Positions 15,245-49,018 of a DNA stretch of 64,000 bases are shown here, piece after piece. A program made the position numbers and the translations under genes. Positions within the stretch are counted from its first letter, which is position 1. Every line of letters starts with the position of its first letter. Source of the DNA: Methylocystis sp. B8 (lineage in GTDB: Bacteria; Pseudomonadota; Alphaproteobacteria; Rhizobiales; Beijerinckiaceae); contig NZ_VBTZ01000002.1 of assembly GCF_005771425.1 (NCBI RefSeq), positions 248,001-312,000 of the forward strand, written 5' to 3'. Under the pieces are notes generated by a model, which was not told the DNA's origin, searched no databases, and saw nothing but the letters and a program-made list of their open reading frames with translations.

Positions 15245-15498
15245 GTCCCTGATCGTTCGCGTCTTCAATGAACAGCTTCCGCTCCGTACGATTCCAGTCT
15301 CGTGAATTCAGATTAACCTTCTACGCGAATAGCATTCCGACGAACAAAAAGGGATAATGCTATCGTCGGTATCAGCCTCATTTTGGGCACTCCCTCCTCG
15401 CTGCGTCCAGTTCGAACTCCTGCGCATAATATCAATTTTGATTTTGCGCTCAGGCTTTGGGTATAGGGGGATGACCTTCGAACACCGCAACGGGGTGT

Positions 15499-16608
15499 TT
15501 ATGGGAGATTAGCATTTCCTTTCAAATATGTTGAAACAACTGTAACAAGAACTGGTACAAGGATAGAAGTTGTAAATAATTTTACCACAGTATCAAGATT
15601 TAGAGGCCATGAAGGAATGGACCTTATCCGCGAGTATACTTTTTCATAAAAGTCAAATCGTCTTTGCGTTGCCTCACACCACCTTAATATGTTGCTTACA
15701 TATGTTCGGTTTGCTGTGAGGTCAAACCTTCTTATTAGAAGTCTTTTGGAGTCGCGCAGTTTACGATGCACCAAGTAAATAGGCGTCATGAAGCTGATTA
15801 TTTGACAGATAGAATATAGAGCCAGCATCAAATAACTAACCAAGAGAGCTCTTGGCCCGTTGCTCTGGCCTATTATCACTATAAGAGGCGCAAAGAGCCA
15901 GCCGGTACAAAACATAATGGATGTTTGTAGCGCGAGCTTCCCGACAAAGGATAAGCCAAGAACGCCATCATATGAATAAATATTGCTCTTTAAGTCGCAT
16001 TTTACCAGTAGGTGGGTTAGATATATCGCTTTGAACGAGTTACAGAATCCGAGTGATGTGTAATACCCAACCAATACGACGCCAAGCAATAAAATATAGA
16101 ATAACCAGTCTTGGAAAGGATGATCGCTGACAATTAAGTTTTCTATAAACCCCATCGAAGCGAAGTATCCGACAACAACAAGCAGCATCCAAATAACTGT
16201 AAAATAAATGTTTACTCTTATTACGTAAGGTCCACCTAAAAAGGAGCGTCTTAGTCGTTCCATTCCGGGTGATGGATATTCCATCAAGAGCCTGGACTCC
16301 CGAGCAAAATTTGGCAGGATTTTGCTCTCATAATACCATACTTGTGGTGGTCCCGCGACGATCCAAGAACAAGCACCCAGGAGCGCCGCCGTCTCTTCTA
16401 TTGAAAGCCGCCATGGATTCGATCTGACAAAGTATATAAATAGGAGAAGCGCTACCACCGGCAGGATGTGTATTAGACCTCCCAGAAACAATTTCGTACC
16501 GGGTGAGCCGGGTAGCGACTGTATTGTCTTTGTAACCCCCGACCAATGGTTACGAACGTGAATATTGAATCCTATCAGACGTAGAAATAAACGTATGAGA
16601 GATCCCAT
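15499..16608 (-). CDS. Multi-pass membrane protein of unknown function
   Basis: 369 residues, six or seven hydrophobic segments (around residues 43-63, 75-93, 128-152, 168-188, 228-248, 255-282 and 345-365), and basic inter-helix loops. No family recognised. Codon usage is markedly AT-rich compared with the genes to the left and with the core genes to the right, which points to recent acquisition. It begins 7 bases after the flavoprotein gene, behind a GAGG site, so the two form an operon and probably act in the same membrane process, perhaps lipid or isoprenoid modification; that is inference from the partner. Confidence 0.75.
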   Translation of the reverse strand: MGSLIRLFLRLIGFNIHVRNHWSGVTKTIQSLPGSPGTKLFLGGLIHILPVVALLLFIYFVRSNPWRLSIEETAALLGACSWIVAGPPQVWYYESKILPNFARESRLLMEYPSPGMERLRRSFLGGPYVIRVNIYFTVIWMLLVVVGYFASMGFIENLIVSDHPFQDWLFYILLLGVVLVGYYTSLGFCNSFKAIYLTHLLVKCDLKSNIYSYDGVLGLSFVGKLALQTSIMFCTGWLFAPLIVIIGQSNGPRALLVSYLMLALYSICQIISFMTPIYLVHRKLRDSKRLLIRRFDLTANRTYVSNILRWCEATQRRFDFYEKVYSRIRSIPSWPLNLDTVVKLFTTSILVPVLVTVVSTYLKGNANLP

Positions 16609-16615
16609 AAGAGCC

Positions 16616-17785
16616 TCATCGCTTAAGATATATATATTTTCGGATGGCTTTTTTTACTTGTTGAAAGAATAATCTGGGTAATTCCCGGTACTCAAGCTCA
16701 CCCGCGAGAATGTCCATATAGCCTCTTTGCAACGTTGAAGCGTCCGAGAACGCCCAGTCGAATGTGCGCCGCAGGAATGTTGGAAAAATCAGCCACTTCC
16801 AATAATTGGCCATTTTAAGTGACGAGAAAATTGGAACGAGATGACGTAGATAAACGTCCAGCGCGATTTCAGGTTTGCCGGACTTCCGAGCTTCCAAAAT
16901 GGCCTGAGCTGCGGCGTGACCACTCTGCATTGCATAAGCGATTCCTTCACCCGTTATGGGATCGACGAATCCTGCAGCATCTCCGCACAAAAGGTCGCGA
17001 TCGCGACCCGGTCGTTGCCGAAAATCCCCAAACGGAATGAATTGGCCTTTCACGTGAAGGGACTCCGCCGATATGCCATGCTGACATAGGAATTGGTCCA
17101 AGGATCCCTTCATCGACGTATTGGAATCATGAATGCCGCCTACGCCAACTGTAAAGGTCTTTTGCTTGGGAAACACCCAGCCATATCCCCACCGTGTAAT
17201 GCCGAAATCGATATCGACGGAGTTGTCGCGCTGCGGCAATGAGTTTCGTGGCACCTCAACCTCGAGACCAAATCCTATGGTGCGAGGATCAAATGAACGG
17301 CCAAAAAGATATTTTGCGCAAAGACTGTTGACTCCATCCGCACCAATAAGGTGCGCAAATTCGATCGTCGATCCATCTGAAAGCTGCAACCTGCGCCGCT
17401 CGAACTCGATCACCGAGACTGCGTTGCCGAGATACATTTTGCAGCCGACCGACTCGGCAAGCCCGAGGAGATAGGCGTCGAAATCAAAACGCATGGTAAA
17501 ATAGAGCGTCGAATAATTGTGTAAGGAAGCAAGAGGTCGTCCATTAGAAATAAAATGTACATCTCTAGAACTTGTAAACAGATTTTCATCCCATTGACGA
17601 TGGAATACTTGCTCAAAAATTCCCTTGCTGCGAAGCGTGATTAAGCCACCACATAATTTGTTCCGAGGGAACTTACTCTTGTCGATTAGGCAAACAGAAA
17701 CGCCTGCGTTTGCAAGTGTAAACGCAGCAGCGCTTCCAGCCGGACCACCTCCAACCACAGCAACATCATAGGCGTAGGTGACCAT
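16616..17785 (-). CDS. Geranylgeranyl-reductase-family FAD-dependent oxidoreductase
   Basis: About 389 residues from ATG 17785 (a TTG seven codons upstream is the alternative). It has the FAD-binding VAVVGGGPAGSAAAFTLA at the N-terminus, PRNKLCGGLI, the second FAD motif LLCGDAAGFVDPITGEGIAYAM, and the family's middle segment GYGWVFPKQKTFTVGVGG. Relatives reduce isoprenoid chains of archaeal lipids, chlorophyll or quinones, or act as halogenase-like flavoproteins; substrate here is unknown. Chlorophyll synthesis genes are absent from the window. It is AT-rich like its downstream partner. Confidence 0.85.
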   Translation of the reverse strand: MVTYAYDVAVVGGGPAGSAAAFTLANAGVSVCLIDKSKFPRNKLCGGLITLRSKGIFEQVFHRQWDENLFTSSRDVHFISNGRPLASLHNYSTLYFTMRFDFDAYLLGLAESVGCKMYLGNAVSVIEFERRRLQLSDGSTIEFAHLIGADGVNSLCAKYLFGRSFDPRTIGFGLEVEVPRNSLPQRDNSVDIDFGITRWGYGWVFPKQKTFTVGVGGIHDSNTSMKGSLDQFLCQHGISAESLHVKGQFIPFGDFRQRPGRDRDLLCGDAAGFVDPITGEGIAYAMQSGHAAAQAILEARKSGKPEIALDVYLRHLVPIFSSLKMANYWKWLIFPTFLRRTFDWAFSDASTLQRGYMDILAGELEYRELPRLFFQQVKKAIRKYIYLKR

Positions 17786-18081
17786 CTGCTTCCGTTTCGG
17801 ATTCAACCAGCGTTTCTGTCAAACACCAAGACAAAAACGGTACAGAGAGTCAATGGAAGTGCTGTGACCCTATTCCGTTCATCCCGCTAGGGGGTTGGAG
17901 CCTCAGAGTGAGATTGGCGCAATAGCGCCGCGTGGAGCCGGGTGGGGACTACGGCAGAGCAGATCGCACATTGAGGTGCGGTAAGTGGCATAGGTTTTCC
18001 CGCCGCTTGATCGCCGAGCGCCGAATGGTGATTGTTGCGGGAGACCCATCACGCGATGGCCGTTCGAGCCTTTTCCAAAAC
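17786..18081. other. Intergenic region at left edge of the Cas1/PolB module
   Basis: 296 bases between the flavoprotein start and the 3' end of the HExxH gene. No gene, tRNA, direct repeat array or terminal inverted repeat matching the right side (25399-25861) was found by eye. It must carry the promoter of the flavoprotein operon. Confidence 0.4.
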
Positions 18082-18720
18082 TCAATCATCGGTCCGCGGT
18101 TCGCCGGAGGCGCGCGCAGATTTGAGCTCACTGATTTCGCCAGGCCGCCATTCAGGCCGCGTCGATTCCGGTATGGCGTCCTCAAGAAACGTTCTTATGC
18201 TCTGATATTCAAAAATTTTTCTTTCCGCCACCCTTCGCGCTGCAAAAGCTAGCAGTAAGCACCAGTCCGGAAAATGAAGCCGTCGGTTATAGATATCAAA
18301 GCAATCCTCAATAATTTCAGCATTTTGGCAATCTATCTCTGTGTAGTTCATTCGAATGTGTAGCTGCTCAAGGTAATGTGATGCTTCGTGACTCAAAAGC
18401 GGGAACATTTCACGATCAGTAACCGATATCAGGCGAAGATTCACGAGTAGAACGTCAACTTTGCGGTCAGGCAGACACAAGTGATTCTGCGCATCCACAC
18501 ACATGCCGGCTTCCGAGTCATGAAAAACCTTATTAATTTCTTCCAGCTCTGTCTGGCTAAAATTCCCGCAAATCGGAGTCAAGCGCTGGTTGCCGCTGTC
18601 TATGCCGATGATCCAAAACTCTCTCTCCCTGTCTTCCAAAATAGTAGTCAGATTTAGATCAAAGACTTGTGTGAGGGCGTTCTCAAAAAGCCTATACACC
18701 CTTTCGCCGAAACTTCCCAT
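18082..18720 (-). CDS. HExxH-containing (zincin-like) protein of the Cas1/PolB module
   Basis: 212 residues; no signal peptide, so likely cytoplasmic. The only motif I recognise is HEASH at residues 111-115 in the setting FPLLSHEASHYLEQL, a zinc-metallopeptidase-like motif, with possible third-ligand acidic residues downstream (EIIEDCFD). The remainder matches no family I know. AAGGAG lies nine bases before the ATG at 18720. The gene begins 11 bases after the repaired cas1 stop codon (18732-18734), which implies one operon with cas1. A peptidase role is inference from the motif only. Confidence 0.65.
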   Translation of the reverse strand: MGSFGERVYRLFENALTQVFDLNLTTILEDREREFWIIGIDSGNQRLTPICGNFSQTELEEINKVFHDSEAGMCVDAQNHLCLPDRKVDVLLVNLRLISVTDREMFPLLSHEASHYLEQLHIRMNYTEIDCQNAEIIEDCFDIYNRRLHFPDWCLLLAFAARRVAERKIFEYQSIRTFLEDAIPESTRPEWRPGEISELKSARASGEPRTDD

Positions 18721-18731
18721 GCGACTCTCCT

Positions 18732-19867
18732 TCAATAAAAGGAGCAGTTATTGACGAAGACCCTCGCGATTTCCGGATTAAGCCTGCACACGCCATCAGA
18801 CCGGATTACGAAATCCGCCGGATCAAATACGTGGCCTTTTAAGAAATCTAGCACCTTGCGATCCACCAACGGCCGAGCGGCTCCATTAAATCGAAAACAA
18901 ACGCAGCCGAACCACTATTGCCTTCATGCATGACGCCAATCGTCGGATCATAGCCTTCCGCGATGGCGTCAATCTGTAATTGCGATTGCAGCACGCTGTA
19001 GGCATAATTCAAAATTGAATTTACGGGGTGCGACGCGTTTCGATTGCCAGCCTTGTGAAATAACGATGTGCGCTGGCTGATTTCTTTCCACGCGTCTGGA
19101 ATTGGTCGCCTGGAAATTCCCCGCCACTTGATCGGCATGCCTTTCCAGGCGCGGAAATAAGCCGCCGCCGCATTCGCCTCCAGGGCGCGTAATTCGACGA
19201 CACTTTTCGGCTGTCGCGCGTCCAATTTCGTGAGCGTCGCATAGGCAATTTCCATTGCCCTATTCCAGGTGTCATTTTTTCTGACGGATTTTTCGAGCGT
19301 GGTTATTGAATTTTCGATTTTCTGTGTGATTTTCGAAATCGAAAATTCTATCCGCTTATTTTCATCGGCACGCATCTCGCGCTGCCATTGCACACGAAAT
19401 GGGTTGGCGGAATATCCCGATTTCGACGCAACGCAAATGACATCGCCGCGCCAATCAATACGAATTAAATCGATCCGTTGTTCGGCAAGCCATGAGAGGA
19501 CGTCAAAAGAAACCGTTCCGGATCCATCAAGGACAATAATTCGTTCGGGGATCGAAAGCTCGCCTTTGAAGAAGCGAATGACCTCCTGCTTTTGCGGGTA
19601 ATGGGTGAAGCCGTTGCGGATCGTCAGCGTGCCATTTTCAACGCGCAATGTGACTCCATGGCCAGAGAGAATTAGAGGCTGCCGCGGCCTTTCGCGAGCG
19701 GCGCGCCGGGAGCCAGTCTTTTGCGCTCGCTTTGCCCAGAGATTACAGCGCTCGGCCCAGTCCAGATCGTCTTCTTCTAATTCGATGTCGGACGGCACGG
19801 GCTCAGCGCAGCGCAAACGCGATCTGGGCTGAATTGTTTTCCTTCTAGAGCTGCCCAAGGATAGCAA
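18732..19867 (-). CDS. cas1: Cas1 homologue (solo), with a single-base frameshift near its 3' end
   Basis: As it reads, the ORF covers 18848-19867 (339 residues). The catalytic Glu230 (ELRALEANAAAAYF), His314 (IGVMHEGN) and Asp326 (FVFDLMEP) of the Cas1 integrase fold are present, as is the NASHPVNSILNYAYSVLQ helix. After DLMEPL the frame is lost. Reading one base out from about 18873-18877 restores a typical Cas1 ending (RPLVDRKVLDFLKG, DGVCRLNPEIARVF, NNCSFY) to a stop at 18732. An extra 65-residue N-terminal extension precedes the canonical beta domain (LILSGHGVTLRVENGTL). Start is a TTG (19867 or 19858). It is 12 bases after the upstream gene. No cas2, effector or CRISPR array is in the window. 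Confidence 0.88.
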
Positions 19868-19879
19868 TCCTCAAAATAT

Positions 19880-20593
19880 TCAGACGCTTTCTTTTCCGAG
19901 TTTAGCAGCTTCAATCTTCCTGAGAAGGTCCCAGTAGGAATCGTGGCTAGCGAAGCCTCGACGTAAATTCCTGGCCGAGAGGGCGGACTGGAATTCGGGA
20001 GCTTGCTGCAATTTTTGGACCTGCTCAGAGGCTTTTAGGCACTCTGAGGCTTTTTTTCCGAGGTCCGCGATGGTTTCGCTGTCGACGATCGAATTCGAAT
20101 AGCGCCTCAGCGCAGCGATCACGAGGACAAACAAAGCTTGGGTATTCGCTGTTGATTTCCGCGCGTGCAGCGCAGCTTGATGTAGACCGAAGGCTTTCTT
20201 CTCAAAAACCGGCGACGTCGCATCGTAAAAATCAATCAAGAAGCCCATCGCGGTACGCGCGTCGTCTCGCGCCCTTTTCAGCTCATCCTCGGGAAAGTTG
20301 CTGATCTCCACGAGAGTGTGTGTCTCGCCGACCGACGAAACTGCCGCCAACCAGTCCAAGAGCGCTGCGTCCAGCAACAGACGATTTCCGAAAACCTGGT
20401 CTGTATTCGATTGACCGATGCCAAATCCGGCCTCCAGAATGCTCGTGTCTTGATCATCGAGACGTGGGTTGAATTGCCCCGTTGCGCTGCTGAGCATAAT
20501 TCCCAAGAAGGGCAATAGATTATCAGCTCCCAATCTCCTCTTAATTTTCGATAGCCGAGCGTCGCTCGATATCTCGACGATGTGTTCATCCAA
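19880..20593 (-). CDS. Unknown protein of the Cas1/PolB module, C-terminal part of a frameshifted gene
   Basis: 237 codons open in this frame, soluble and mostly helical, with no recognised domain. The frame continues upstream without a convincing start. If the run of eight G (minus strand; C run 20644-20651) is reduced by one, this frame joins smoothly with the preceding ORF (20586-21023) through the sequence GGVRKQNAEREAQNLPSTIL, giving one protein of about 380 residues. I therefore regard the two as one gene, broken by a true mutation, a homopolymer assembly error, or possibly a slippery site. The gene is directly upstream of cas1. Confidence 0.6.
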   Translation of the reverse strand: MDEHIVEISSDARLSKIKRRLGADNLLPFLGIMLSSATGQFNPRLDDQDTSILEAGFGIGQSNTDQVFGNRLLLDAALLDWLAAVSSVGETHTLVEISNFPEDELKRARDDARTAMGFLIDFYDATSPVFEKKAFGLHQAALHARKSTANTQALFVLVIAALRRYSNSIVDSETIADLGKKASECLKASEQVQKLQQAPEFQSALSARNLRRGFASHDSYWDLLRKIEAAKLGKESV

Positions 20594-21023
20594 AATAGTT
20601 GAGGGCAGATTCTGGGCCTCTCGTTCGGCATTTTGTTTGCGAACCCCCCCCTAACAACCGGTCACCAAACCTGGCGATAAGCTTGAGTCTGCGAAACCCG
20701 TGGCATTCGTCTACCTCGTAGCCCTGCCACCATAGACGCCACCCGACGTACGTGAATCTCCGCTTTTCTTCGACAAGCAATCTCTCAATCTCTAGCGCCT
20801 GTGCCGCCGTGCCCACCGGATGATGCGTTTGACTCCCCCTTATACCCTTGGGGTGATCCCAATCGGGAAGCGGCAAAAGCCCTGCTTCACGGCGGCGCTC
20901 CAATCGCCGCTCTAGCGCGGACCTCTTGATCGTGATGCCAGCCGCTTCGAACGCTTGCTGGATGTCTTCGATCGTCTCCCAACCATCAGTCATCGCCCGG
21001 ATCAGCTCCCCGCAGAATGCCAT
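20586..21023 (-). CDS. HTH-like N-terminal part of the frameshifted gene upstream of cas1
   Basis: Encodes an N-terminal region that looks like a winged or simple helix-turn-helix (GWETIEDIQQAFEAAGITIKRSALERRLERRREAGLL) followed by an aromatic-rich segment (RRFTYVGWRLWWQGYEVDECHGF). It terminates about 25 codons after an eight-G run, where a one-base correction fuses it to the next ORF. ATG 21023 is taken as start; TTG 21062 is possible. The divergent HTH gene begins at 21080, so promoter signals for the two arms overlap coding or leader sequence. Confidence 0.55.
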   Translation of the reverse strand: MAFCGELIRAMTDGWETIEDIQQAFEAAGITIKRSALERRLERRREAGLLPLPDWDHPKGIRGSQTHHPVGTAAQALEIERLLVEEKRRFTYVGWRLWWQGYEVDECHGFRRLKLIARFGDRLLGGGSQTKCRTRGPESALNYFG

Positions 21024-21079
21024 TTTCCAGGAATCGCGCGCCTCATTTTCGCGCTCCCTCAAACGTTGGGAGCCGAATC

Positions 21080-21670
21080 ATGGCGACGAAATCCAAGAGA
21101 AAACGAGACTTTCAGGCTGAGTATAAAGCCAGAATCGCGCGCGGGCTGGCAAACGGAAAAAGCCGGTCGCAAGCGCGCGGCCACGCAAGGGCGAGCGATC
21201 TGCCTGATCGCGAGACTGCCCAATTCGTCGACAGGCGCAGCAAGCTCGAAAAAGCCCTCCGGTTAATGAAGCAAGGCTTCTCTCAAAAGGACGCCGCCAA
21301 ATCTGCCGGCATCTCGCCCGAGACGCTACGCCGCTATCAGAAGCAGAACACCAAGTCTCGCCGCGAGGGCGGGCGCTGGGTCATTGTCGACGACCGCCCG
21401 GTCACCGTGCTCATGGCGACGCGTGGCAAGTTGCGCGACGTCACAGTGAGCCGAGACGCGGCGAGCGACATTGGTCGGCACTGGGTGGCGATCAACAAGT
21501 TCCTGGACAGCAACGACCCTTCGCATCTCGCGCCCTTTGTCGGACTTGGCTTGCGCGATACGCGCGGCAAGCTCTGGCCCTTCGAAGCGCGGCCTAATGT
21601 GCTGCGCAAGCTCGATAGCGCGGGCGAGTTCTCCTTCGTCGATATCTACCGCCAGACGGCGCAGCAGTAA
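21080..21670 (+). CDS. HTH-containing protein, first gene of the PolB arm
   Basis: 196 residues. A basic, positively charged N-terminus (ATKSKRKRDFQAEYKARIARG, SRSQARGHARASD) is followed by a clear resolvase/homeodomain-like HTH at about 73-97 (MKQGFSQKDAAKSAGISPETLRRYQK). After it comes a beta-rich domain (GRWVIVDDRPVTVLMATRGK; WVAINKFLDSNDPSHL) without a recognised family. GGGAG seven bases before ATG fixes the start. It may regulate the divergent module or recognise module DNA ends. It is separated by 11 bases from the next gene. Confidence 0.7.
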   Translation: MATKSKRKRDFQAEYKARIARGLANGKSRSQARGHARASDLPDRETAQFVDRRSKLEKALRLMKQGFSQKDAAKSAGISPETLRRYQKQNTKSRREGGRWVIVDDRPVTVLMATRGKLRDVTVSRDAASDIGRHWVAINKFLDSNDPSHLAPFVGLGLRDTRGKLWPFEARPNVLRKLDSAGEFSFVDIYRQTAQQ

Positions 21671-21681
21671 GGAGCGCCGCT

Positions 21682-22149
21682 ATGGACATGTTCGAACGAA
21701 TGAGGAGCCGCGCTCGCGCGCTGTGGCGCGCCGGTCGCAAGGGTCAAAAGCTTTCATCGCTGTGGCGCTTCGAAAACTGGGCCAACGAAGGAACGGAAGA
21801 TCACCATATCGCACGGGCCAAATACGGCGACGGCCTTATCCCAGCGCCGATCGGCATGCATCAAGAGCTGACCCGTCGGCAGATGGAGGAGCATCCGCCT
21901 GAAGGTCCTGATCCCAGCAATCCGCTCGAACGTAAGGGCCGCCTCGCCCTCGGCCTAGCTGACATAGCCGAATGCGTCGCGGACGGCTTGCGCCAGATTG
22001 GGGAAAAGCTAATCGAGGAAGCAAGGACTGGCGCGCGTGATCTGGACGCAGGAGCGGATATAGACTCAGAATTCGCGACCGTTATGCGCCTTTTTAGCGG
22101 GCGGCTCATGGAAATCGAATTGAGCCGAACGCTCGACCTAAAGGAATGA
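21682..22149 (+). CDS. Unknown protein of the PolB arm
   Basis: 155 residues, basic N-terminus and acidic helical C-terminus (ADIAECVADGLRQIGEKLIEE, TVMRLFSGRLMEIELSR). No domain or motif recognised. Tightly packed between the HTH gene and the DNA polymerase (6-base gap to the latter), and preceded by AAGGAG, so a real gene and co-transcribed with the polymerase; a polymerase accessory role would be inference. Confidence 0.65.
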   Translation: MDMFERMRSRARALWRAGRKGQKLSSLWRFENWANEGTEDHHIARAKYGDGLIPAPIGMHQELTRRQMEEHPPEGPDPSNPLERKGRLALGLADIAECVADGLRQIGEKLIEEARTGARDLDAGADIDSEFATVMRLFSGRLMEIELSRTLDLKE

Positions 22150-22155
22150 CATAGG

Positions 22156-25100
22156 ATGCCCAAAATCATCGACCGGAATTCTGAGGAAGCATCGGTTCCG
22201 GTCGATCATCTTCTCATCCAGTTGCGCGCCTATATCGAACGCGCGCCCGAAAAAGCCAAGAAATCCCCAAAAGCAAAAGCCAAGGAGCGGCGGGACGCGG
22301 TCTTCGATCCCGACGCGCCGCGAACGCCGCCGAGCGATTGGGCTCTCATCTTCGACTGTGAGACCCGCACCACTCCAGATCAGCGCTTGCGGTTCGGTGC
22401 CTACCAGCTGCGTTACAAGGGTCAGCTCGGGGAACGCGGGGCGTTTTACGAGCCCAAGTCGCTTACGGCAGCCGAAACGGCGCTCTTGCAGGAATTCATT
22501 GCGAAGGAGGAGCCCGGTCCCGACGCCGAGCGCATTCGCCTGTTGACCCGCGCTGAATTTGTCGAGGAGGTTTTCTACAAATCAGGCTATCTCGTCGGCG
22601 CGCAGATTGTCGGCTTCAATTTGCCTTTCGATCTCTCCCGCCTGGCGATCCGATACGCTTCCGCCCGGCGAAGCATGCGCGGCGGCTTCAGCCTCACCCT
22701 CTGCGAAACACCAGGACGGCCTGCGATTGCCGTGAAGCACCTCTCACAGCGGGCGGCGATGATTCGCTTCACCGGCTTGAGGAAAGACGACGAAACCGAA
22801 GAGGATGACATCGATCCCGACGCGCCGCACGAGAGCGAGGAAAAGGCGGATCCCGATCGTGGGTATTTCGTTGACGTGAAGACGCTCGCGGGGGCGCTGC
22901 TCAGCGGCTCCCATTCACTTGCCTCCCTATCCGAACTGCTGAGCATAGAGACGCGCAAGGTCGAATCGGAGGAGCATGGCGGCCCATTGACGAAAGAATA
23001 TATCCGCTATGGTCTCAATGACGTGCAAACCACCTGGGAATGTTTCGAGAAGCTAACGGAGCGGTTCGAAAGCTTTGAACTGAATGAAACTGGCGCATAT
23101 GACCTCTATAGCGAGGCCAGCCTTGGCAAGGCCTATTTAAAGACAATGGGGGTGACGCCCTGGCGCAAGCTGCAGCCGGAGTTCCCGCCGCAGCTCATCG
23201 GGCAAATTCTCAGTGGCTATTACGGTGGGCGCGCCGAGGTTCATATTCGTCGCCAGATCGTCCCCGTCATTCATTGCGACTTTCTGTCAATGTATCCCAC
23301 CGTCTGCACGCTAACGGGGCTGTGGGATTTCGTTTGCGCAAAGGGGGTCAAACATCTCGACGACACGCAGGCGGCCCGCGAGTTTGTTGATCGACCCGCG
23401 TCGGAGCTGATCGAAAATCTTCAGCAAAAGGACGCCTGGTCGTCTCTCGCTGCGCTCGTGCAGGTTGAACCCAAGGACGATGTCTTTCCCGTCCGCGCCA
23501 AATATGATTCGCTTGTCGACGGCGTCGCGCCTCCAGCGACGATCGGCCTCAACTATCTGTCGAGCAAGGAACCCATATGGTTCACATTGGCGGACGTGCT
23601 CGTCTCCAAAATATTGACTGGCCGAACGCCGAAAATTCTCAGTGCCGTCCGCTTCGAGCCGATGGAAAAACAGGACGGCCTTGAGCCCATCACTGTCGCG
23701 GGCGAAACGATCGACCCTACGAAAGACGACTTTTATCGACGCCTGATCATTCATCGCAACGCTCTCAAGGCCAAAGCTGACGCCGTAGCCAGCGAGGCTG
23801 AGAAGCCGCCCCTCGAGAGCGACCAGCAAGGCGTCAAGATTCTCGCCAATGCGACGAGCTATGGGATCTTCGCCGAGTTGAACGTGGAGGATTATCGCAC
23901 AGCCAAACCTATGATTGCCTATGGCGCAAAGTCGCAGGCATTCAAATTCAAATCGAAGAAATTCGAAAAGCCGGGTCGATATTTTCACCCACTGCTCGGG
24001 GCGCTGATCACCGGAGCCGCCCGGCTGATGTTGGCGCTCGCCGAAAAACAGGTCATCGAACAAGGACTGGATTGGGCTTTTTGCGATACCGACAGCATCG
24101 CCATCGCCAACGCCGCAAATCTCCCGCTCGAAGAGTTCAAAGCGAAGGCACTAAAGGTCCATGATTGGTTCAGGGATTTGAACCCCTATGGCGAGGATAA
24201 ATCGATCCTGCAGCTCGAGAAGGTGAACTTCCCCAAGGGAAGAAACGGCGACCTCGAAGCCCTCGATCCGCCCTTCTGCCTGGCGATTTCGGCTAAGCGT
24301 TATGTCCTGTTCAACCGACACGACGGAGCACCGGTCATCCGCAAAGCGTCTGGGCATGGCCTTGGTCATCTGCTTGCGCCCTATGACGAACCCGCCAAGG
24401 AGCGCCGCTTGCGCATCAAGCGCATTGGGGTGCCGCTCTGGCAGGAAGACATCTGGAAAGAGATCATCCGCGCCGCGGATAGCGACGCACCGGACCAGAC
24501 CCGATTCATGGATATGGCCGGTTTCGAGGTCCTGGCGGCGAGTCCGTATGCGGCCACAACGCCGGAGCTTTTACGCTGGTTCGACGGCTACAACGACCGT
24601 CACAAGGACGGCGAAAAGGTCTTTCCCTTTGGCTTCTTGCTGTCGCTTCAGTCGAAGTCGCGAATAGAAATGGCGAAAGACGAGCCAGAAGCGCTTTCTG
24701 ACGACCTTTGGCAAAGACGTGAGCCGCGCCCCGCCGCGCCCTTTTTCAAACATGCAATCGACGCCAAGAATCACGCCTTCGATCGCGAGCGCAATGAGCC
24801 AATCCCGTCGTCCTGGCTCAAATCCCATGGCCGCAGCCTCGTCCGCTACCACCTTCATCAGGAATCAAAATTCTGGGGTGGCGAATATGATCAGCGCGGA
24901 CCGTTGCGCCGCCGTCATGTCCACGCCTTGTCCCTGCAGCCGATCGGCAAGGAGTCCGACAATCTCGAAGAGAATGAACTCATCGGTGAAGACGCGGGGC
25001 CAATTGAGCATCCAATGGAGTCGAGCGGCCAGAGGAAGCTAGCGGCATTCGTCTTGGAGACGCTCAAGCAATTCGAGATCAGCGATCGGGACCTGATCGG

Positions 25101-25398
25101 CAGGGCGAACGTTTCACACCATACGCTCGCATCCTTGCGCGGCCGCAAGGGCATCTCGGATGACTCCCTTCAGCGACTTGTGCGCGCCGCGGAGGAGTTG
25201 CGGCAAGAGGTAGAGTCGGTTGCTTCAGAAAATGAGCGATGGCTTGAAAAACTGAGAGAGATTTGTGACCAGGTGGGCGGGCGGAATAAATCGGCGAAAT
25301 TGCTTAGCGTCAGCGGGCCGTATCTTGGGCGGGTGATGAGCGGGAAAAAGCCGATGACTGTGGAGATGGTTGAGAGGCTCAAGGAATTTAAGATTTAG
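22156..25398 (+). CDS. Family B DNA polymerase with 3'-5' exonuclease and C-terminal HTH region
   Basis: 1080 residues. Exonuclease motifs: ExoI IFDCET (Asp67, Glu69), ExoII VGFNLPFD (Asn155, Asp159), ExoIII YGLND (Tyr285, Asp289). Polymerase motifs: A DFLSMYPTV (Asp375), B KILANATSYG (Lys561-Gly570), C FCDTDSIAI (Asp644, Asp646). All catalytic residues are intact, so both activities are expected. The last 110 residues (from about 973) contain two HTH-like stretches (DRDLIGRANVSHHTLASLRG; GRNKSAKLLSVSGPYLGRVM) that are not part of standard PolB. Viral, plasmid and casposon PolBs are the natural comparison; bacterial chromosomal Pol II is organised differently. It is the last gene of the rightward arm divergent from cas1. 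Confidence 0.9.
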   Translation: MPKIIDRNSEEASVPVDHLLIQLRAYIERAPEKAKKSPKAKAKERRDAVFDPDAPRTPPSDWALIFDCETRTTPDQRLRFGAYQLRYKGQLGERGAFYEPKSLTAAETALLQEFIAKEEPGPDAERIRLLTRAEFVEEVFYKSGYLVGAQIVGFNLPFDLSRLAIRYASARRSMRGGFSLTLCETPGRPAIAVKHLSQRAAMIRFTGLRKDDETEEDDIDPDAPHESEEKADPDRGYFVDVKTLAGALLSGSHSLASLSELLSIETRKVESEEHGGPLTKEYIRYGLNDVQTTWECFEKLTERFESFELNETGAYDLYSEASLGKAYLKTMGVTPWRKLQPEFPPQLIGQILSGYYGGRAEVHIRRQIVPVIHCDFLSMYPTVCTLTGLWDFVCAKGVKHLDDTQAAREFVDRPASELIENLQQKDAWSSLAALVQVEPKDDVFPVRAKYDSLVDGVAPPATIGLNYLSSKEPIWFTLADVLVSKILTGRTPKILSAVRFEPMEKQDGLEPITVAGETIDPTKDDFYRRLIIHRNALKAKADAVASEAEKPPLESDQQGVKILANATSYGIFAELNVEDYRTAKPMIAYGAKSQAFKFKSKKFEKPGRYFHPLLGALITGAARLMLALAEKQVIEQGLDWAFCDTDSIAIANAANLPLEEFKAKALKVHDWFRDLNPYGEDKSILQLEKVNFPKGRNGDLEALDPPFCLAISAKRYVLFNRHDGAPVIRKASGHGLGHLLAPYDEPAKERRLRIKRIGVPLWQEDIWKEIIRAADSDAPDQTRFMDMAGFEVLAASPYAATTPELLRWFDGYNDRHKDGEKVFPFGFLLSLQSKSRIEMAKDEPEALSDDLWQRREPRPAAPFFKHAIDAKNHAFDRERNEPIPSSWLKSHGRSLVRYHLHQESKFWGGEYDQRGPLRRRHVHALSLQPIGKESDNLEENELIGEDAGPIEHPMESSGQRKLAAFVLETLKQFEISDRDLIGRANVSHHTLASLRGRKGISDDSLQRLVRAAEELRQEVESVASENERWLEKLREICDQVGGRNKSAKLLSVSGPYLGRVMSGKKPMTVEMVERLKEFKI

Positions 25399-25861
25399 TT
25401 GGAACATCCGCGCATGGACGCGGCGTAGTAGGATCCGGACCGGCTATCGGGTCCGAGCTGGCCGCCACGGGGGCATTGTCTCGCAAAACGGATATTGGAA
25501 ACGATTGCCGTAAGACCGGATTTGACCCTGAGCGGACCTGCGCCCAAACTACGCGCCACATGGCGAGATCGCGCTGGAGACCTTCGAGTTGTAGGCGAAC
25601 CCGAACAACGATGCGCGTTGCGTGAGTGATCAGCATCAATCGCCGTTAAGATCGCAGATGCTGCTCACCGTCGACCCTAGGGCAAATCGCAGTGCACGCC
25701 TCTGCTTTTCTGCGAAGGAAAACGAGCGATCCGCGAACCCTGACACCTTCCCCACCAGCAAGGCCCGGCCGCGCAGTTCCGTCGAGTCGGACATTCAAGA
25801 TCCAGATAGCGGACCGTTCTAAGTTGCAACCAGCCAACGTCGAAGCTTGGCGCGAATCCAG
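25399..25861. other. Intergenic region right of the PolB gene
   Basis: 463 bases with no supported gene. A short hairpin (CGGACC at 25436-25441 pairing with GGTCCG at 25450-25455) lies 38 bases after the polymerase stop but has no T-run. No repeat array and no inverted match to 17786-18081 could be seen. It may contain the right boundary of the Cas1/PolB module. Confidence 0.45.
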
Positions 25862-26995
25862 CTAAGATGATGGGAGTGGCCTGATACCTGACTCAGAAAG
25901 CCTTCGCAAAAGGTCACTTCGTATGTGATCAATGATAAGCGTACTCATTTCGCAATAGAAATACTTGTTGGCAAACGACTTATTCTTGTCAGACCTGAAA
26001 TTTGTACATCCAGACCTGCACACATCGAAATAGTCACATTCGAGGCACTCTTTCGCGAACATTAAAGTGCTATTCTTGCAAACTTTGCAGAGAGTAGGAT
26101 GAACCTTAATGGTTTCGAGCCGATGCGTCTGCAGAGTTCCCAGCGGCTCCGGAAATGTTGATAGCAGGTCATCACAAGGGTAGATTGATCCATCTGGCAG
26201 AACGGTAATTATGTACGAACAGTCGTCACTAAAAATGCACGTGTCGGGTGCTGCACCGAGCAACAGTTGGGTGTAATCACGTAGGCGACGGACACAAATT
26301 TCGCTGTTCGCCTCGTCCATCCATTCGTCGTAAACGTCGATAAAGAACTGGGCAAACTCCCTCTGCGAGGGCATACTAGCGAGATCAATTGTGGTATGCT
26401 GCAAGCTTGCATGGGGTAGCAGGAAATCCATCCACACAGTGTCCATGGAACGAAAATAGCGGTAAATTTCAGCTCCGCGACGCATAGCGGCTGGTCCGAG
26501 AACGCAGAGTATCTGCAGCGGGTGTCCCTCTGACCGTAGCGCTTCGATACCCTGGATTACCTTAGCTGACGTCGGATGACCGGCATGGTCGACTCTCAGT
26601 GCGTCGTTGACCTCTGGTGGGCCATCCAGGCTAATAGAAGTTACTATCCCTAAGTCCTTGAGTAGTCGGGCGTAATGTCGAGTGAGTCTGACTCCGTTCG
26701 TTTGGAGTAGATGCGTAACCTTCGTGCTTGGCAGGTACTTCTGTTGAAATTCATATACGCTTTCGTAGAAGCTGGGTGGTTGTAACAGAGGCTCCCCGCC
26801 ATGCCAATAAAACGTGAATCGTGACAGTTCTTGTGATTGAACATATTCAGATATTCTCGAGAAAAGAGATTCAAGCACATCAATATCCATTAAGATCAGC
26901 TTCTTAGACCCGAAGCCGTAATGGTCAACATAGCAATATTTGCAAGCGATATTACACCCTTGCGTGACCTTAACGATGGCATGCGTAATAGCCAT
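25862..26995 (-). CDS. Radical SAM/SPASM peptide-modifying enzyme
   Basis: 377 residues from ATG 26995, chosen for its ideal AGGAGG ribosome site; the 40 upstream codons are rejected. The radical SAM cluster motif is CNIACKYC (Cys14, Cys18, Cys21), followed by FYWHGGEPLLQP and TNGVRL. The C-terminal 100 residues hold a SPASM domain with auxiliary-cluster cysteines (CDDLL, CKVCKN, CLECDYFDVCRSGC, FYCE). Enzymes of this architecture install crosslinks or other radical modifications on ribosomal peptides. The precursor gene lies 143 bases upstream, so a RiPP maturase that makes a carbon-carbon or related crosslink at the Trp is likely; the exact chemistry is inference. Confidence 0.88.
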   Translation of the reverse strand: MAITHAIVKVTQGCNIACKYCYVDHYGFGSKKLILMDIDVLESLFSRISEYVQSQELSRFTFYWHGGEPLLQPPSFYESVYEFQQKYLPSTKVTHLLQTNGVRLTRHYARLLKDLGIVTSISLDGPPEVNDALRVDHAGHPTSAKVIQGIEALRSEGHPLQILCVLGPAAMRRGAEIYRYFRSMDTVWMDFLLPHASLQHTTIDLASMPSQREFAQFFIDVYDEWMDEANSEICVRRLRDYTQLLLGAAPDTCIFSDDCSYIITVLPDGSIYPCDDLLSTFPEPLGTLQTHRLETIKVHPTLCKVCKNSTLMFAKECLECDYFDVCRSGCTNFRSDKNKSFANKYFYCEMSTLIIDHIRSDLLRRLSESGIRPLPSS

Positions 26996-27138
26996 GCTCG
27001 GTCCTCCTAGTTCAATACTTTGGTCGCTGACAGCCCGTTCAAAATCAAAAAAGCACGTTGTCGCAAAACAGTTCCGATCTGTGTCACTTTGGCAAAGCGG
27101 CACAGATCGGTGCATGAATTATCGAGGGTCAGTGCTGC

Positions 27139-27393
27139 TTATTTTTGTTTTGTTTCCAACCCGGGAACGTCAACCATGGTCGGAAGCTCTCTCTGAAGGG
27201 CCCCTCGACTCCACCCCCCTTGGATATGGTCTCCCCCACGACTCCATCCACCTTGAATATGATCGCTGGCTTTTAGGTCAGCAAAGCCCACGTCAGAGGC
27301 GCGCGCCACCGATACTAAGTCTTGAAGAAGCGAGTTGTTTATCTGGCGGATGTCGTCGATTGCCAAGTCACCAAATTCAATCTTTTTTGCCAT
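27139..27393 (-). CDS. RiPP precursor peptide with two DHIQGGWSRG repeats
   Basis: 84 residues starting at ATG 27393 behind AGGAG. Residues 1-43 look like a leader (MAKKIEFGDLAIDD, then a helical INNSLLQDLVSVARASD). Residues 44-65 are two 11-residue units DHIQGGWSRG(G/A). A 19-residue hydrophilic tail follows. The two units are identical in protein for ten residues but use different codons, so selection acted on the peptide. With a radical SAM/SPASM gene immediately downstream on the same strand, this is a strong candidate precursor; the Trp-Ser-Arg tripeptide in each unit fits the aromatic-X-X pattern used by cyclophane-forming maturases. Confidence 0.8.
   Translation of the reverse strand: MAKKIEFGDLAIDDIRQINNSLLQDLVSVARASDVGFADLKASDHIQGGWSRGGDHIQGGWSRGALQRELPTMVDVPGLETKQK
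27202..27264 (-). repeat. Tandem peptide repeat in the RiPP precursor core
   Basis: Two adjacent units coding for Asp-His-Ile-Gln-Gly-Gly-Trp-Ser-Arg-Gly, separated by one Gly. DNA identity is lower than protein identity because several third codon positions differ (for example GGT GGA versus GGG GGG for the Gly pair). Confidence 0.85.
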
Positions 27394-27842
27394 GATTTTC
27401 ACTCCTGAGCTGGAGTTAACGTTCAGGATGCTGCTATTGACCGGTCGACATGTCAAGAGCCGATGACGACACGACGAACGCGGCGTTTTGGCTCGGTACG
27501 GCCACATTCTCCTTGTGGTTCGTCCCTCAAGCTCGCGACCTTGAAGCGCTTCGTGCCATTCGGGTCACGCCGCCTTCGGCAAGGGCGCTTTGGCGTCCGC
27601 TTCTGGCGCGAAGCAGCCATCGAAGCGACGGCTGCTCATGACCCGTTCCGGACGTAGACTAGTTGCGCGTTGAGAGGTGCGAAACCGAGTAGCCAGCGCG
27701 TACGCTGAGGCAAAGACACTAAACAAATCGACTCCACTGGATATCCGGAGACCAGATCGACGCCGGCTAGCGTAAGGCGAGGAATATAGTAGATTGACTT
27801 CTCCCTTGGAGGGCTGACCTTTATGAAGAATTTGGTCGCTAG
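27394..27842. other. Intergenic region between RiPP locus and SIR2-HerA operon
   Basis: 449 bases. The leftmost part must hold the precursor promoter; the right part holds the SIR2-HerA promoter. Short ORFs in all frames have compositions typical of non-coding GC-rich DNA and none has a ribosome site I trust. Confidence 0.4.
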
Positions 27843-29159
27843 ATGAATTTCTTTGCGGTTCGAGGTAGCCGTGAGCTTAGCGAAGAAGAATTTAAGGCTC
27901 ACTTGGCGCTGACGGTTAGGCTGGAGAACGTAGGGGCTTTTCTTGGTGCAGGAGCCTCCGTCTCGGCCGGTGGAAAGACCCTCGCCGAAGTTTGGGCCGA
28001 TTTTCTCAACGTCTACCCCGAAACCATAGCTTGGCTGGTAGAACACAAATTCATAAAAAAAAACCAAGCCTGCGCAGAGGCGGTTGTAAACCTTGAACAG
28101 GTAATGGATGCGCTCGATCTGGCGTCGATCGAATGGAGCCGGGCCGAGCGCGACGGCATAGCCGACCTCGACATACATCGATCCAACCTGCGGCGTGTCA
28201 TCGTGAAGGCAGCTCTACTCCAGCCAGACCTTTGGGAGCGCCCGGACACGGCCCCGGACAACGAGGCCATCGGGGATCATGTGCGCCTACTATCCCGGCT
28301 CGTATCGAACAGACAGCCCGGCCAAGCGGCTCCGTGGGTTTACACGGTCAATTATGACCTTGCGATCGAATGGGCGGCAGAGGCCTTGGGCCTCCATCTG
28401 GTAAATGGCTTCACCGGCCTGCATTCGCGGGCATTTTCGCCTGCGTCATTCGACCTGGGTCTACGTAACACGCAGGCGCGTGGTGAAGCGCGCTTCGGCA
28501 CCTACAATGTCTACCTGGGCAAGGCGCATGGGTCCCTTTCATGGATCGAGTCGGAGGACGGCTCTGTTGTTGAACTCCCTTCTCGAGCACAATGGGCGGA
28601 CTTTAAGAAGTTCATCAACGCAGAAGCCGGAGTTACCTGCCCCGGCCTGTTGATCTTCCCTGGGGCAGCCAAGTTCGTGCAGACGGCGGGATTCATTTAC
28701 GGCGAGATAGTCCGCCGGCTTACCGAATTCATGTCGCGCCCAAACACCTGCCTGATCATTAGCGGGTACGCATTCAACGACGATCATATCAATCGGGTTA
28801 TCCTTTCGGCGCTTCAAAATCCGACCCTTCAGATCGTGATCTATCTTCCGGAGCTTGATCGCTTCGAAATGTTTCCGACAATTCCGAGGCCCCAGAAGAC
28901 GCTAACACCCAATTTGATGTTGGCGCGACTAATTAAGCGCCAACTACCGCAGGTGACTGTTTGCGGCTTCGGTGCTCGCGCCTTTTTTAGCCAGATGACT
29001 AAAGATCTTCCAGAGCCGGCATTACTTGACGACGCGGCTCAACGCGCGCGGGATCTTGAACGTCTCCTCCGAGGCCCCGCTAACCAAACGGTGGCTGTAC
29101 CCACGGGCACGATAACACAGGCCAGCGAGGCTCCCCTCGAGGATGGGGCGGAGGCATGA
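27843..29159 (+). CDS. SIR2-family NAD-processing protein (SIR2-HerA defence system)
   Basis: 438 residues. The SIR2 core is recognisable from the NAD loop AFLGAGASVSAGG (Gly35-Ser39), TVNYDLAIEWAAE (Asn170-Asp172) and the catalytic-type His229 in LGKAHGSLSW; the late strand LIISGYAFNDDHIN is also typical of SIR2_2 proteins. Such proteins hydrolyse NAD+ when phage infection is sensed. The stop overlaps the HerA start by four bases (ATGA), so the two subunits are coupled. Together they match the known SIR2-HerA (Nezha-type) anti-phage system, where the two proteins form a large complex. Confidence 0.9.
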   Translation: MNFFAVRGSRELSEEEFKAHLALTVRLENVGAFLGAGASVSAGGKTLAEVWADFLNVYPETIAWLVEHKFIKKNQACAEAVVNLEQVMDALDLASIEWSRAERDGIADLDIHRSNLRRVIVKAALLQPDLWERPDTAPDNEAIGDHVRLLSRLVSNRQPGQAAPWVYTVNYDLAIEWAAEALGLHLVNGFTGLHSRAFSPASFDLGLRNTQARGEARFGTYNVYLGKAHGSLSWIESEDGSVVELPSRAQWADFKKFINAEAGVTCPGLLIFPGAAKFVQTAGFIYGEIVRRLTEFMSRPNTCLIISGYAFNDDHINRVILSALQNPTLQIVIYLPELDRFEMFPTIPRPQKTLTPNLMLARLIKRQLPQVTVCGFGARAFFSQMTKDLPEPALLDDAAQRARDLERLLRGPANQTVAVPTGTITQASEAPLEDGAEA

Positions 29160-30985: not shown

Positions 30986-31168
30986 TTCAAAGGCGTTGGT
31001 TGGAGTAAATTAGCCCCTCGCCGCCACTCCAGTGCAAAATCTGACACGAAGCGGCAATTCTTAAGGGCGAAATCTTGAATGAAATACCCTGTCGATGATG
31101 CGAGATATCGCGCTAGGAATGCAGCGCACCTTCTCACGATCATCATCGATACCGATCGAGGCGCGACA

Positions 31169-32194
31169 ATGCCATTTGACCCATCAATGTTTGATCAAAT
31201 CGTTGCCGATCTTCGCGTCCTCGAGATTGATGAGATCAAACAAAGATTGCGACCCTTGATGATCGGGTACGAAATTAAGTCGCCTAAATTCAATGCGGGC
31301 GCGTTTCTTTATCGGGCGCGAATGTTGGATTCCAAATTTAGCAAATCCGCCGGTGTCACGCATAAGGACCTTATATACCCGCCCAAGCACTTAGCGAAAC
31401 TCGGCCGGCTGAACCGCGCGGGAGACTCTGTTTTTTATGCGTCAATGCACAAGGAATCCGTTTTCTTCGAGCTTCCTAACTTAAAGACGGGTGACGAGCT
31501 GATCTTAACCTTTTGGAAGACGACCGAGCAAATGTTCGTCAACAACATTGGTTATACGGAATTCGCCTTTAAGAGGCTCGGCGCAAAGCGTCCTGTTCCC
31601 ACATGGAGGCCGCCAAAAGCTCCGGAAGACACAGGAACGTCGGTGAGTTTGCCGACATTGCCGCAAGACGTTGTGAATGTCGCCCTATCCAAGGACGAGA
31701 ATCGTGAGATCAAGGAAGCGTTCAGCGAACACTTCATGCACAGTGTCACTTGTGACGAATCCTTTCGCTACAAACTTACCGTGGCTATCGGTGAAATGCA
31801 CTTGGGCTACATTACCGATCAAAACGTGCAGTTCGCCGGCATCCTCTATCCGTCAGTTCGCATGTGGGCCAATGGTGACAATATTGCCTTGCTTCCTTGG
31901 TTTGTCGATAATCACCTTGAATTTCGCAAGGCCGTCCACGTTCGGATCAAAGGCCGGACTGAAAGGACTATAGATATCGATTATCTAGATGCCGCACATG
32001 AATTTGACGACGCGGGAAGATTGAAGTGGCTCGGCCGCATTCGAGCTTGGACGCTGAAACCGCAGCAGGCAGCAAGGTTTTTGGGTGTTGCTGGTCAGGA
32101 CGACGACGGGGATTACACCGTAGGCGAAGATGGTCAGCCTGCGCATTGGACGGCGGTGGACGCGACCACGGAACAACCAATTTATCCGGAATAG
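31169..32194 (+). CDS. RES-domain protein (NAD+-degrading toxin-like)
   Basis: 341 residues from ATG 31169, chosen because GAGG precedes it; an ATG 30 codons upstream is less likely. The RES domain is visible at residues 44-170: LYRARML (Arg49), LGRLNRAGDSVFYAS (Arg80, Tyr90) and VFFEL (Glu101), the residues that define the family. RES toxins (for example in Xre-RES modules) hydrolyse or phosphorolyse NAD+. No Xre-type antitoxin gene is adjacent, and the protein is about twice the size of the simple toxins, with an unassigned C-terminal half. Its place next to SIR2-HerA suggests a defence role. Confidence 0.82.
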   Translation: MPFDPSMFDQIVADLRVLEIDEIKQRLRPLMIGYEIKSPKFNAGAFLYRARMLDSKFSKSAGVTHKDLIYPPKHLAKLGRLNRAGDSVFYASMHKESVFFELPNLKTGDELILTFWKTTEQMFVNNIGYTEFAFKRLGAKRPVPTWRPPKAPEDTGTSVSLPTLPQDVVNVALSKDENREIKEAFSEHFMHSVTCDESFRYKLTVAIGEMHLGYITDQNVQFAGILYPSVRMWANGDNIALLPWFVDNHLEFRKAVHVRIKGRTERTIDIDYLDAAHEFDDAGRLKWLGRIRAWTLKPQQAARFLGVAGQDDDGDYTVGEDGQPAHWTAVDATTEQPIYPE

Positions 32195-32641
32195 TATTTA
32201 GGGTCGTATAGAATCCTAGGGGCGAAATTGGTCCAGTCCCGTCTGGCGCTTCTCCGACATTCCCTGCTGTCGGCAGTTCGTTCGCAGACCGGTGAAAAGC
32301 AGACGCGCCTACTCCGCTGCAAACCCGCCCATCAAAAAGCTACGCCTCTTATTGCATCCCCCAAAATGTAATTTGTTTCGCCGGACAAGCGTGTGCCGAG
32401 AGGCTGACTCAAACTGACGATCGAAAACGACGGGGGGTGCCTAAAGTGTGGCTGATGTCAGTGATAGCTATATCCCCCCGACGAACAAAAAAAGAACTTG
32501 GCAAAAAGAACAAATCGTGCACACTGGAGTTCAGGGTCAAGCGCGCCGTCCCCCCTTCTCGCCTTGGCGCGCTTGGCCCTGCGCCCCTCGCAGCCGCCGT
32601 TGCCTGCGCCTAGCTAACCATGTCAGAAGGAATTTTCAGCC
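32195..32641. other. Intergenic region upstream of recA
   Basis: 447 bases. The right 160 bases carry the LexA box and recA promoter region. The left part contains nothing I recognise and is the right boundary of the accessory island. Confidence 0.5.
32483..32497. promoter_or_regulatory. LexA-binding SOS box of recA
   Basis: GAAC, seven A, GAAC: an exact match to the alphaproteobacterial SOS box GAAC-N7-GAAC (the other strand reads GTTC-N7-GTTC). It lies about 145 bases before the recA start, where LexA would repress transcription. Confidence 0.85.
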
Positions 32642-33706
<1,065 letters not shown>

Positions 33707-44052: not shown

Positions 44053-44098
44053 GAGGCGGAAGCGCCGCGCTGTGCTGCGTGGATTCGTGACGCCTGCG

Positions 44099-48228: not shown

Positions 48229-48382
48229 GAGTCTGCTCCAAGAATGAGATATTTATGTCCCGCCTACGCCAAATAAAGGCACCGCCGATTCGGGTCGAGG
48301 GGTAACAATCGAGCGAAGCAAGCAGCGAAAGCTTTGGGAGCAAAAAATTTAGCGAGAGATTAGCCGCCTTTCCCTGCATAAG

Positions 48383-48409
48383 CATCATAAGTATGATATA
48401 GTATGATTG
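48383..48409. promoter_or_regulatory. Probable ParD operator
   Basis: AT-rich cluster of ATCATA/TATGAT half-sites (one ATCATA and two TATGAT within 27 bases) about 20-45 bases before parD. Antitoxins of the ribbon-helix-helix class autoregulate at such palindromes. Inference from position and symmetry. Confidence 0.55.
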
Positions 48410-48428
48410 CTTTTTGGGAGACCCGCAT

Positions 48429-49009: not shown

Positions 49010-49018
49010 ATGCTGCGC

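Follow-up and report, generated by a model that had tools for sequence, protein, structure and literature searches.

Casposases, the Cas1 integrases of casposons, are thought to be ancestral to the integrases that insert CRISPR spacers. This article concerns a casposon in Methylocystis sp. B8, found in a stretch of 64,000 nucleotides (contig NZ_VBTZ01000002.1, positions 248,001 to 312,000) that we call the window, and above all the place where it sits, the LexA operator upstream of recA. A preliminary description, made from the letters alone, had drawn attention to a cas1 homologue and a gene for a family B DNA polymerase (PolB) at 18082..25398. Casposons themselves, the bacterial family 3 among them, are already published, and what we say of the papers cited here applies to their titles, the starts of their abstracts and selected passages.

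Most family 2 casposons have a core of Cas1, PolB, an HNH protein and two helix-turn-helix (HTH) proteins (PMC4046053). The window has the same five-gene core, which is largely that of family 3 too. Archaeal members of family 2 (Methanosarcina; compare our loci L068 and L059, both with 17-bp target site duplications, TSDs) share the core, the layout of the arms and related PolB and Cas1 proteins. They part from the bacterial elements in that family 2 Cas1 has a C-terminal HTH and a euryarchaeal host, whereas in the intact relative L023, from a bacterial host, the protein stops not far past its Cas1 domain. The targets given for family 2 in the passages we cite, tRNA 3' ends or intergenic DNA, are also unlike the recA site. 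Family 3 (HenMar-C1, NitAL212-C1, AceAut-C1 and StrAlb-C1; PMC4046053) resembles the window element in its bacterial hosts, its Cas1, PolB, HNH and HTH proteins, its terminal inverted repeats (TIRs) and its TSDs, and its host genera Henriciella and Nitrosomonas recur among the relatives of the window element (L050 and L027). The passages on family 3 describe neither a recA or hairpin target class nor a recA-site lineage with defence cargo.

Two better-known systems invite comparison. Adaptation by CRISPR Cas1–Cas2 uses the same Cas1 fold, the same catalytic residues and a similar target logic of leader plus repeat (PMC6614799, PMC6977970). The window element is unlike a CRISPR adaptation module in that the genome, rated 100% complete and 0.24% contaminated, yielded no second Cas1 and no match to a PF09827-type Cas2, by a model that fails on its E. 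coli control as well and with arrays not searched. The preliminary description had seen no cas2 either, and the CRISPR-Cas locus owning this Cas1 that it named as its own refutation did not turn up within that scope. Tn7 at glmS (PMC4046053), like other transposons that use safe harbours, also goes in next to a conserved host gene and leaves that gene intact; the window element differs in its integrase, which is Cas1, and in its target, the promoter and operator side of recA. The casposon literature, in the titles, abstract starts and passages covered here, does not name the recA/LexA operator as a target. What may be new is the recA/LexA target class, the tracking of target by Cas1 and not PolB, a hairpin target class and frequent anti-phage cargo, though an earlier printed record is possible.

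We are highly confident that 15351-32477 is a bona fide bacterial casposon whose insertion site is the LexA operator in front of recA. It reads as an insertion because it has TIRs, a 14-bp TSD and empty sites in loci of the same genus. The element is 17,127 bp long, with a G+C content of 54% against 61-64% in the flanks. Its ends and target are these.

15337..15350, no strand: left TSD, CCGACGAACAAAAA, a perfect 14-bp direct repeat
15351..15394, plus strand: left TIR, identical to the right TIR at 33 of 44 positions
32433..32476, minus strand: right TIR, an end of the type seen in the TIRs of relatives
32478..32491, no strand: right TSD, CCGACGAACAAAAA, an exact copy of 15337..15350
32483..32497, no strand: LexA operator of recA, GAAC-N7-GAAC, intact on the recA side and unoccupied in same-genus genomes
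32492..32540, minus strand: recA-proximal leader, TTTGTTC...CAAGTTCTT when read toward the element, from the alignment of nine sites
32642..33706, plus strand: recA, the host target gene outside the element, with a 98.9% identical homologue in the same-genus locus L113

From its sequence we take 32642..33706 to be recA, and we take GTTC-N7-GTTC to be the alphaproteobacterial LexA box. The ends were recognised from the TIR motif of relatives, which in many loci starts GGGGGTATAG or a near variant, together with a reading of the flanks by eye. The TIR pair has a local score of 22, the best of 2000 shuffles reaching 15. Two 14-mers are common to 10-18.8 kb and 25.4-40 kb, and only CCGACGAACAAAAA sits at the TIRs. 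An initial search for TIRs (seed 9, minimum score 15; 8-18.9 kb against 25.4-48 kb) returned no pair, and the motif GGGGTATAGTGA had no match in the window with two mismatches allowed. An exact GGGTATAG at 15459 was rejected as an element end. The preliminary description had found no TIRs; they lie outside the stretches it inspected. Its extent of 18082..25398 was accordingly too short, and the TSD, the recA/LexA target and the defence cargo went unseen.

The comparison with empty sites, which it had proposed, bore fruit. Two of 29 same-genus recA loci align across the joined flanks without the element (L086 at 83.2% identity over 1171 bp, L087 at 84.8% over 1164 bp), and at these empty sites the 14 bp are not duplicated. 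As side observations, the left flank was found in five of the 29 loci (L076-L104, L113-L117) and the right-flank match starts no more than 12 bp from the element edge in 14, a border that looks variable without casposons too; a further stretch of lower G+C (0.50-0.58) lies at 44000-50000 of the window.

The core genes sit in two divergent arms, each of which starts with an HTH protein, as the preliminary description had it.

18848..19867, minus strand: cas1 (casposase), PF01867 at E 2.5e-31 in Pfam, best PDB match 6opm
19880..21062, minus strand: HTH gene of the cas1 arm, found by tblastn with the L023 homologue
21017..21670, plus strand: conserved HTH protein, HTH_3 slightly over cut-off, relatives in 42 of 53 genome-contig loci
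21682..22149, plus strand: HNH-family endonuclease homologue, relatives in 43 of the 53 loci
22156..25398, plus strand: family B DNA polymerase with exonuclease domain, an open frame of about 3.2 kb, PolB relatives in 53 genome-contig loci

The catalytic triad noticed in Cas1 is borne out: E230, H314 and D326 are common to 42, 39 and 39 of 42 aligned Cas1 sequences. So is the integrity of PolB, in which the residues of what we take to be the exonuclease and polymerase motifs fall in alignment columns that do not vary between the window protein and three relatives. The PolB profile has its best PDB match in an archaeal replicative-type PolB (E 0.0017), with eukaryotic polymerase alpha lower in the list at E 0.18; in Pfam the sole PolB match of the window protein is DNA_pol_B_2, an organellar and viral family, at E 0.0027, below cut-off. 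The PDB matches and the PolB relatives in Methanosarcinales loci speak against a protein-primed PolB like that of casposon family 1, and the Pfam match speaks for one. The C terminus of the window PolB is possibly an HTH. The start codon of the HTH gene at 21017..21670 is probably the ATG near 21077. An HNH gene had been reported missing, and 21682-22149 belongs to an HNH family whose alignment of 46 members carries the motif CxxC..HH..CxNCH. Neither of these objections to a casposon, missing TIRs and a missing HNH gene, stands.

The cas1 arm is damaged. The cas1 frame breaks after about codon 331 and some 43 more codons follow in another frame, down to 18747. The neighbouring HTH gene is spread over at least two open reading frames (ORFs; 19880-20593 and 20586-21062). 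Relatives have it as one uninterrupted ORF, for example L023, whose protein has a MerR-type HTH at E 0.002, below the Pfam cut-off. A HEAT-repeat tail has been published for one casposon HTH protein. The three-gene left arm of the preliminary description therefore keeps cas1 and an HTH gene; 19880-21062 is one broken gene, and 18082-18735 is not part of the core. L022 (6563-8993) is in the same state as the window (18747-21062), with broken cas1-arm genes and an open polB arm. Since cas1 and the adjoining HTH gene are frame-broken, the window copy, judged from its frames, is probably decaying and immobile by itself.

Our survey took in 61 loci, with 53 PolB-profile loci in genome contigs, and these 53 come from Proteobacteria (mostly Alphaproteobacteria), Actinomycetota, Chloroflexota and Methanosarcinales. 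With profiles made from the window proteins, 41 of the 53 proved to have Cas1, 42 the HTH protein and 43 a member of the HNH family. Of the 12 that lack a Cas1 match, eight lie on contigs that are short or at a contig edge. The association of cas1 with polB that the preliminary description had put at stake thus holds, and the gene set recurs more than chance would have it, from Alphaproteobacteria to Methanosarcinales. Most of the complete loci have cas1 and an upstream gene running leftward and HTH, HNH and polB genes running rightward; in L025, L026 and L040 cas1 is on the opposite strand to this layout. Spread is patchy: PolB matches, the window's own counted, occur in eight of 199 genomes of the family and five of 397 of the order. 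Searches of viral contigs and of plasmids gave no PolB relatives. A Cas1 search of plasmids gave six partial matches, five annotated as CRISPR Cas1 and one an unannotated Bradyrhizobium fragment (L152 12001-12306, 42% identical to window Cas1, amid insertion sequence elements).

Some genomes hold more than one copy. L038 and L039, both from Marinicauda salina, have near-identical Cas1 and PolB, sit at different hairpins and carry different cargo, a sign of recent mobility. Methanolobus bombayensis (L059 1-22376) has two polB arms and two cas1 genes in 22 kb, parts of casposon modules that adjoin one another. A metagenome-assembled genome of Robiginitomaculum has three copies or parts (L071, L072 and L073), with one polB split over several frames.

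Taken as a whole the locus has what defines a casposon: cas1 and polB in one island, TIRs, a TSD of about 14-15 bp, and a Cas1 of the right clade with its catalytic residues. The casposon Cas1 clade (Cas1-solo group 2) was anchored by the archaeal Cas1 of L059 and L068, not by a published alignment. Window Cas1 groups with these two, apart from 27 of 28 comparison Cas1 sequences, on a branch supported at 100/96. The comparison set comprises 27 PF01867 hits from the order and one annotated type I-D Cas1, one too-short hit having been dropped. Its 28th member, L149, falls inside the casposon group and comes from a genome with a PolB relative of its own. The PDB entry that window Cas1 matches best, 6opm, is named in the Methanosarcina mazei casposase paper (PMC6977970).

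Homologues of recA adjoin the elements of relatives as well. Including the window there are nine recA-site elements, in Rhizobiales and Caulobacterales; the others are L022, L023/G070 (Microvirga antarctica), L028, L051, L057, L060, G291 and G481, where G291 and G481 are assigned to Rhizobiales by the order common to the window and Microvirga. At all nine sites, read outward from recA, comes TTTGTTC...GTTCT(T/G), then 13-15 bp of target, then the element. Both ends, with an exact duplication of 14-15 bp, are present in seven of these elements; of the other two, G481 is degraded and shows a match of 13 bp, and L057 retains one end, its register assigned by likeness. In the Rhizobiales sites one GTTC of the operator falls within the duplicated stretch, and in the two Caulobacterales sites the operator lies within the leader, imperfectly in L051. 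The polB end faces recA in the window, the cas1 end in the other six two-ended elements. Control of recA is kept because the duplication rebuilds the recA-side LexA operator whole, and the site upstream of recA acts as a safe harbour for the element. The idea that any LexA box might serve as target found no support, all nine cases being at recA. A search for the occupied-site pattern found the window alone among 385 genomes of the class, and the window and G291 among 397 of the order, so the occupied state appears rare, with a pattern that misses ends such as those of L022, L028 and L051.

Other elements go elsewhere. We had 32 two-ended elements to classify, 29 from 46 searchable loci (score of at least 38) plus the window, G070 and G291; seven are at recA, 20 at palindromic hairpins, one at the end of a transfer-messenger RNA (tmRNA) gene and four at other places. 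The hairpin labels were given by eye before any test. On the 40-nt target, 18 of the 20 have a hairpin stem at p<0.05 against positions in the host flanks (L029 and L053 fail; L053 is also without the common TIR motif at its right end), and 16 had passed a previous test confined to the duplication. Against a thin control of non-coding-like sequence nine of 14 pass, the 14 being the elements with any such control. The centre of the hairpin is the centre of the duplication in 15 of the 20. The tmRNA case is in an actinomycete, L031 (14812-15191), where some 10 bp separate the end of the casposon from the gene's 3' end.

What picks the target? The gene trees point to the casposase. The seven recA-site rows come together as one group in the Cas1 tree (87/75; recovered in 88% of 200 bootstraps), on which the four target classes require three changes, the minimum, with one for the recA label. 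On the PolB tree that label requires three changes, all forced by supported branches, and uniting the seven rows is rejected (approximately unbiased test, p = 8.3e-6, on a quick tree). Because the two trees differ, we conclude that the PolB arm was exchanged while target choice stayed with cas1; target choice, on these trees, seems to travel with the casposase lineage. The conclusion fits in vitro work: the casposase of M. mazei inserts at specific sites without other proteins and depends on leader sequence upstream (PMC6977970), and work on the A. boonei enzyme agrees (PMC6614799).

A number of observations weigh against the account given so far. The TIRs of the window are imperfect, and the empty site of L087 has no exact LexA box. 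The window HNH member has lost its zinc-ligand cysteines, and the Pfam HNH matches of other family members stay below cut-off. Both cas1 and its HTH neighbour are frame-broken, in L022 as in the window. The comparison Cas1 sequences were chosen as PF01867 hits, with the one annotated type I-D Cas1, and not by their CRISPR loci, and the likeness to family 3 is to a description and not to the sequences of the four published members. The Cas1 tree gives the recA group moderate support. Finally, resolution is poor in the HTH and HNH trees: each shows three changes of the recA label, of which supported branches force two and one.

That last point matters for the alternative that an HTH protein, and not Cas1, selects the target in the manner of TnsD, the cas1-arm HTH being the likeliest. 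A role of this kind has been proposed for the HTH and HNH proteins (PMC4046053), and the cas1-arm HTH gene adjoins cas1 and could travel along with it. Against it stand the three recA-label changes in the PolB-arm HTH and HNH trees, weakly resolved as these are, compared with one for Cas1, and the site-specificity of the purified M. mazei casposase on its own. We consider it unlikely, if worth keeping in mind; a gentler version, in which the cas1-arm HTH protein shares the targeting role with Cas1, could hold. Somewhat more doubtful is the idea that the frame breaks are errors of sequencing or assembly and the copy is active. The frame shifts, of one or two bases, speak for it, but two neighbouring genes are broken while the 3.2-kb polB is intact, in a genome with the completeness and contamination figures already given.

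It might also be that the recA location reflects survival and not choice, insertions elsewhere having been lost and the upstream side of recA being harmless. The border does tolerate change, to judge from the flank counts (14 of 29 on the right, five of 29 on the left), but nine of nine insertions directly follow GTTCT(T/G), seven of them with exact 14-15 bp duplications, and we hold survival alone to be improbable. More improbable still is a single old insertion inherited across Rhizobiales and Caulobacterales. The recA-site elements are indeed one group in the Cas1 tree, but the duplication copies are still identical in seven elements, the window element is oriented opposite to the other six with both ends, empty sites exist in the same genus and the PolB arms differ. 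A non-mobile host Cas1-PolB system for repair or defence, one of the three readings that the preliminary description had offered, draws on the broken cas1 arm beside an open PolB arm in the window and L022 and is scarcely credible in the face of TIRs, TSD, empty sites, varied insertion sites in relatives and patchy spread; the other two, a casposon-like element and perhaps a decayed one, have stood.

How might a casposon of this kind work? By analogy with published casposase biochemistry, a casposase tetramer would most likely join the element ends to the target directly after the leader (...GTTCTT| on the recA side), cuts 14-15 bp apart would give rise to the target duplication, PolB would copy the element, and the HTH and HNH proteins would assist in handling the ends or the target. 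In the register of the Rhizobiales sites, bound LexA would cover the junction, with one operator half lying in the duplicated 14 bp, and DNA damage or phage attack would clear LexA and open the site for integration or excision. This LexA gating is a guess, made because operator and duplication overlap. When the M. mazei casposon excises, one empty site remains; in the control strain excision peaked with mitomycin C, though according to the authors stress mattered little overall (PMC10359463). Our joint proposal is that the SOS operator of recA is the address of this lineage, gated by LexA, that specificity borne by the casposase swaps independently of the polymerase arm, and that sister lineages read palindromic hairpins, which are similar to CRISPR repeats. 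As a whole it is speculative and more likely wrong than right.

The remaining genes of the element are cargo.

15499..16608, minus strand: probably a membrane protein, 369 amino acids, no Pfam match at 0.01 and no PADLOC match at 0.1
16616..17806, minus strand: FAD-dependent oxidoreductase of the geranylgeranyl-reductase superfamily, NCBIfam TIGR02032 at 212 bits, above cut-off; PF01494
18082..18735, minus strand: 217-residue protein with a HEASH (HExxH) motif, from the ORF sequence
25862..27115, minus strand: radical SAM/SPASM peptide maturase, PF04055; NCBIfam TIGR03942 at 228 bits, below its cut-off
27139..27507, minus strand: short ORF with a tandem HIQGGWSRG repeat in translation
27843..29159, plus strand: SIR2 protein of SIR2-HerA, PADLOC SIR2 at 615 bits
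29156..30985, plus strand: HerA ATPase of SIR2-HerA, PADLOC HerA at 911 bits
31079..32194, plus strand: RES-domain protein, 371 amino acids, PF08808 at 27.1 bits against a cut-off of 23.2

The product of 18082..18735 is possibly metallopeptidase-like; it matched no Pfam family and had no relative among the 61 loci. The short ORF at 27139..27507 lies upstream of the radical SAM/SPASM gene and is a candidate ribosomal peptide precursor for that enzyme. In the six other two-ended recA-site elements we scanned selected large ORFs, and a single-protein PADLOC match is not proof of a complete defence system. G070 carries type I restriction-modification with PrrC; L051 GajA, GajB and a type IIG enzyme; L022 Drt3a and Drt3b with TIR and SLOG proteins (TIR here a protein domain); L028 an SNF2 helicase and a weak restriction-HNH match; and L060 a DUF4062 protein with a partial match to a candidate system. 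Three proteins scanned in G291 gave no defence match. Among the hairpin class, the largest non-core protein has a PADLOC match at 1e-10 in ten of 20 elements, several of these matches being partial; when the largest coding-like ORF was taken from each host flank instead, one of 20 had such a match (Fisher p 0.003).

Setting the target class of each insertion site against the gene trees gives natural pairs, readers of recA and readers of hairpins, that open questions of target reading at the level of residues. Duplications centred on hairpins are a natural parallel to the palindromic repeats of CRISPR. And the recA/LexA site connects a mobile element bearing anti-phage genes with the SOS regulon: if the joint proposal is true, interchangeable anti-phage cassettes would move exactly while the host is under attack.

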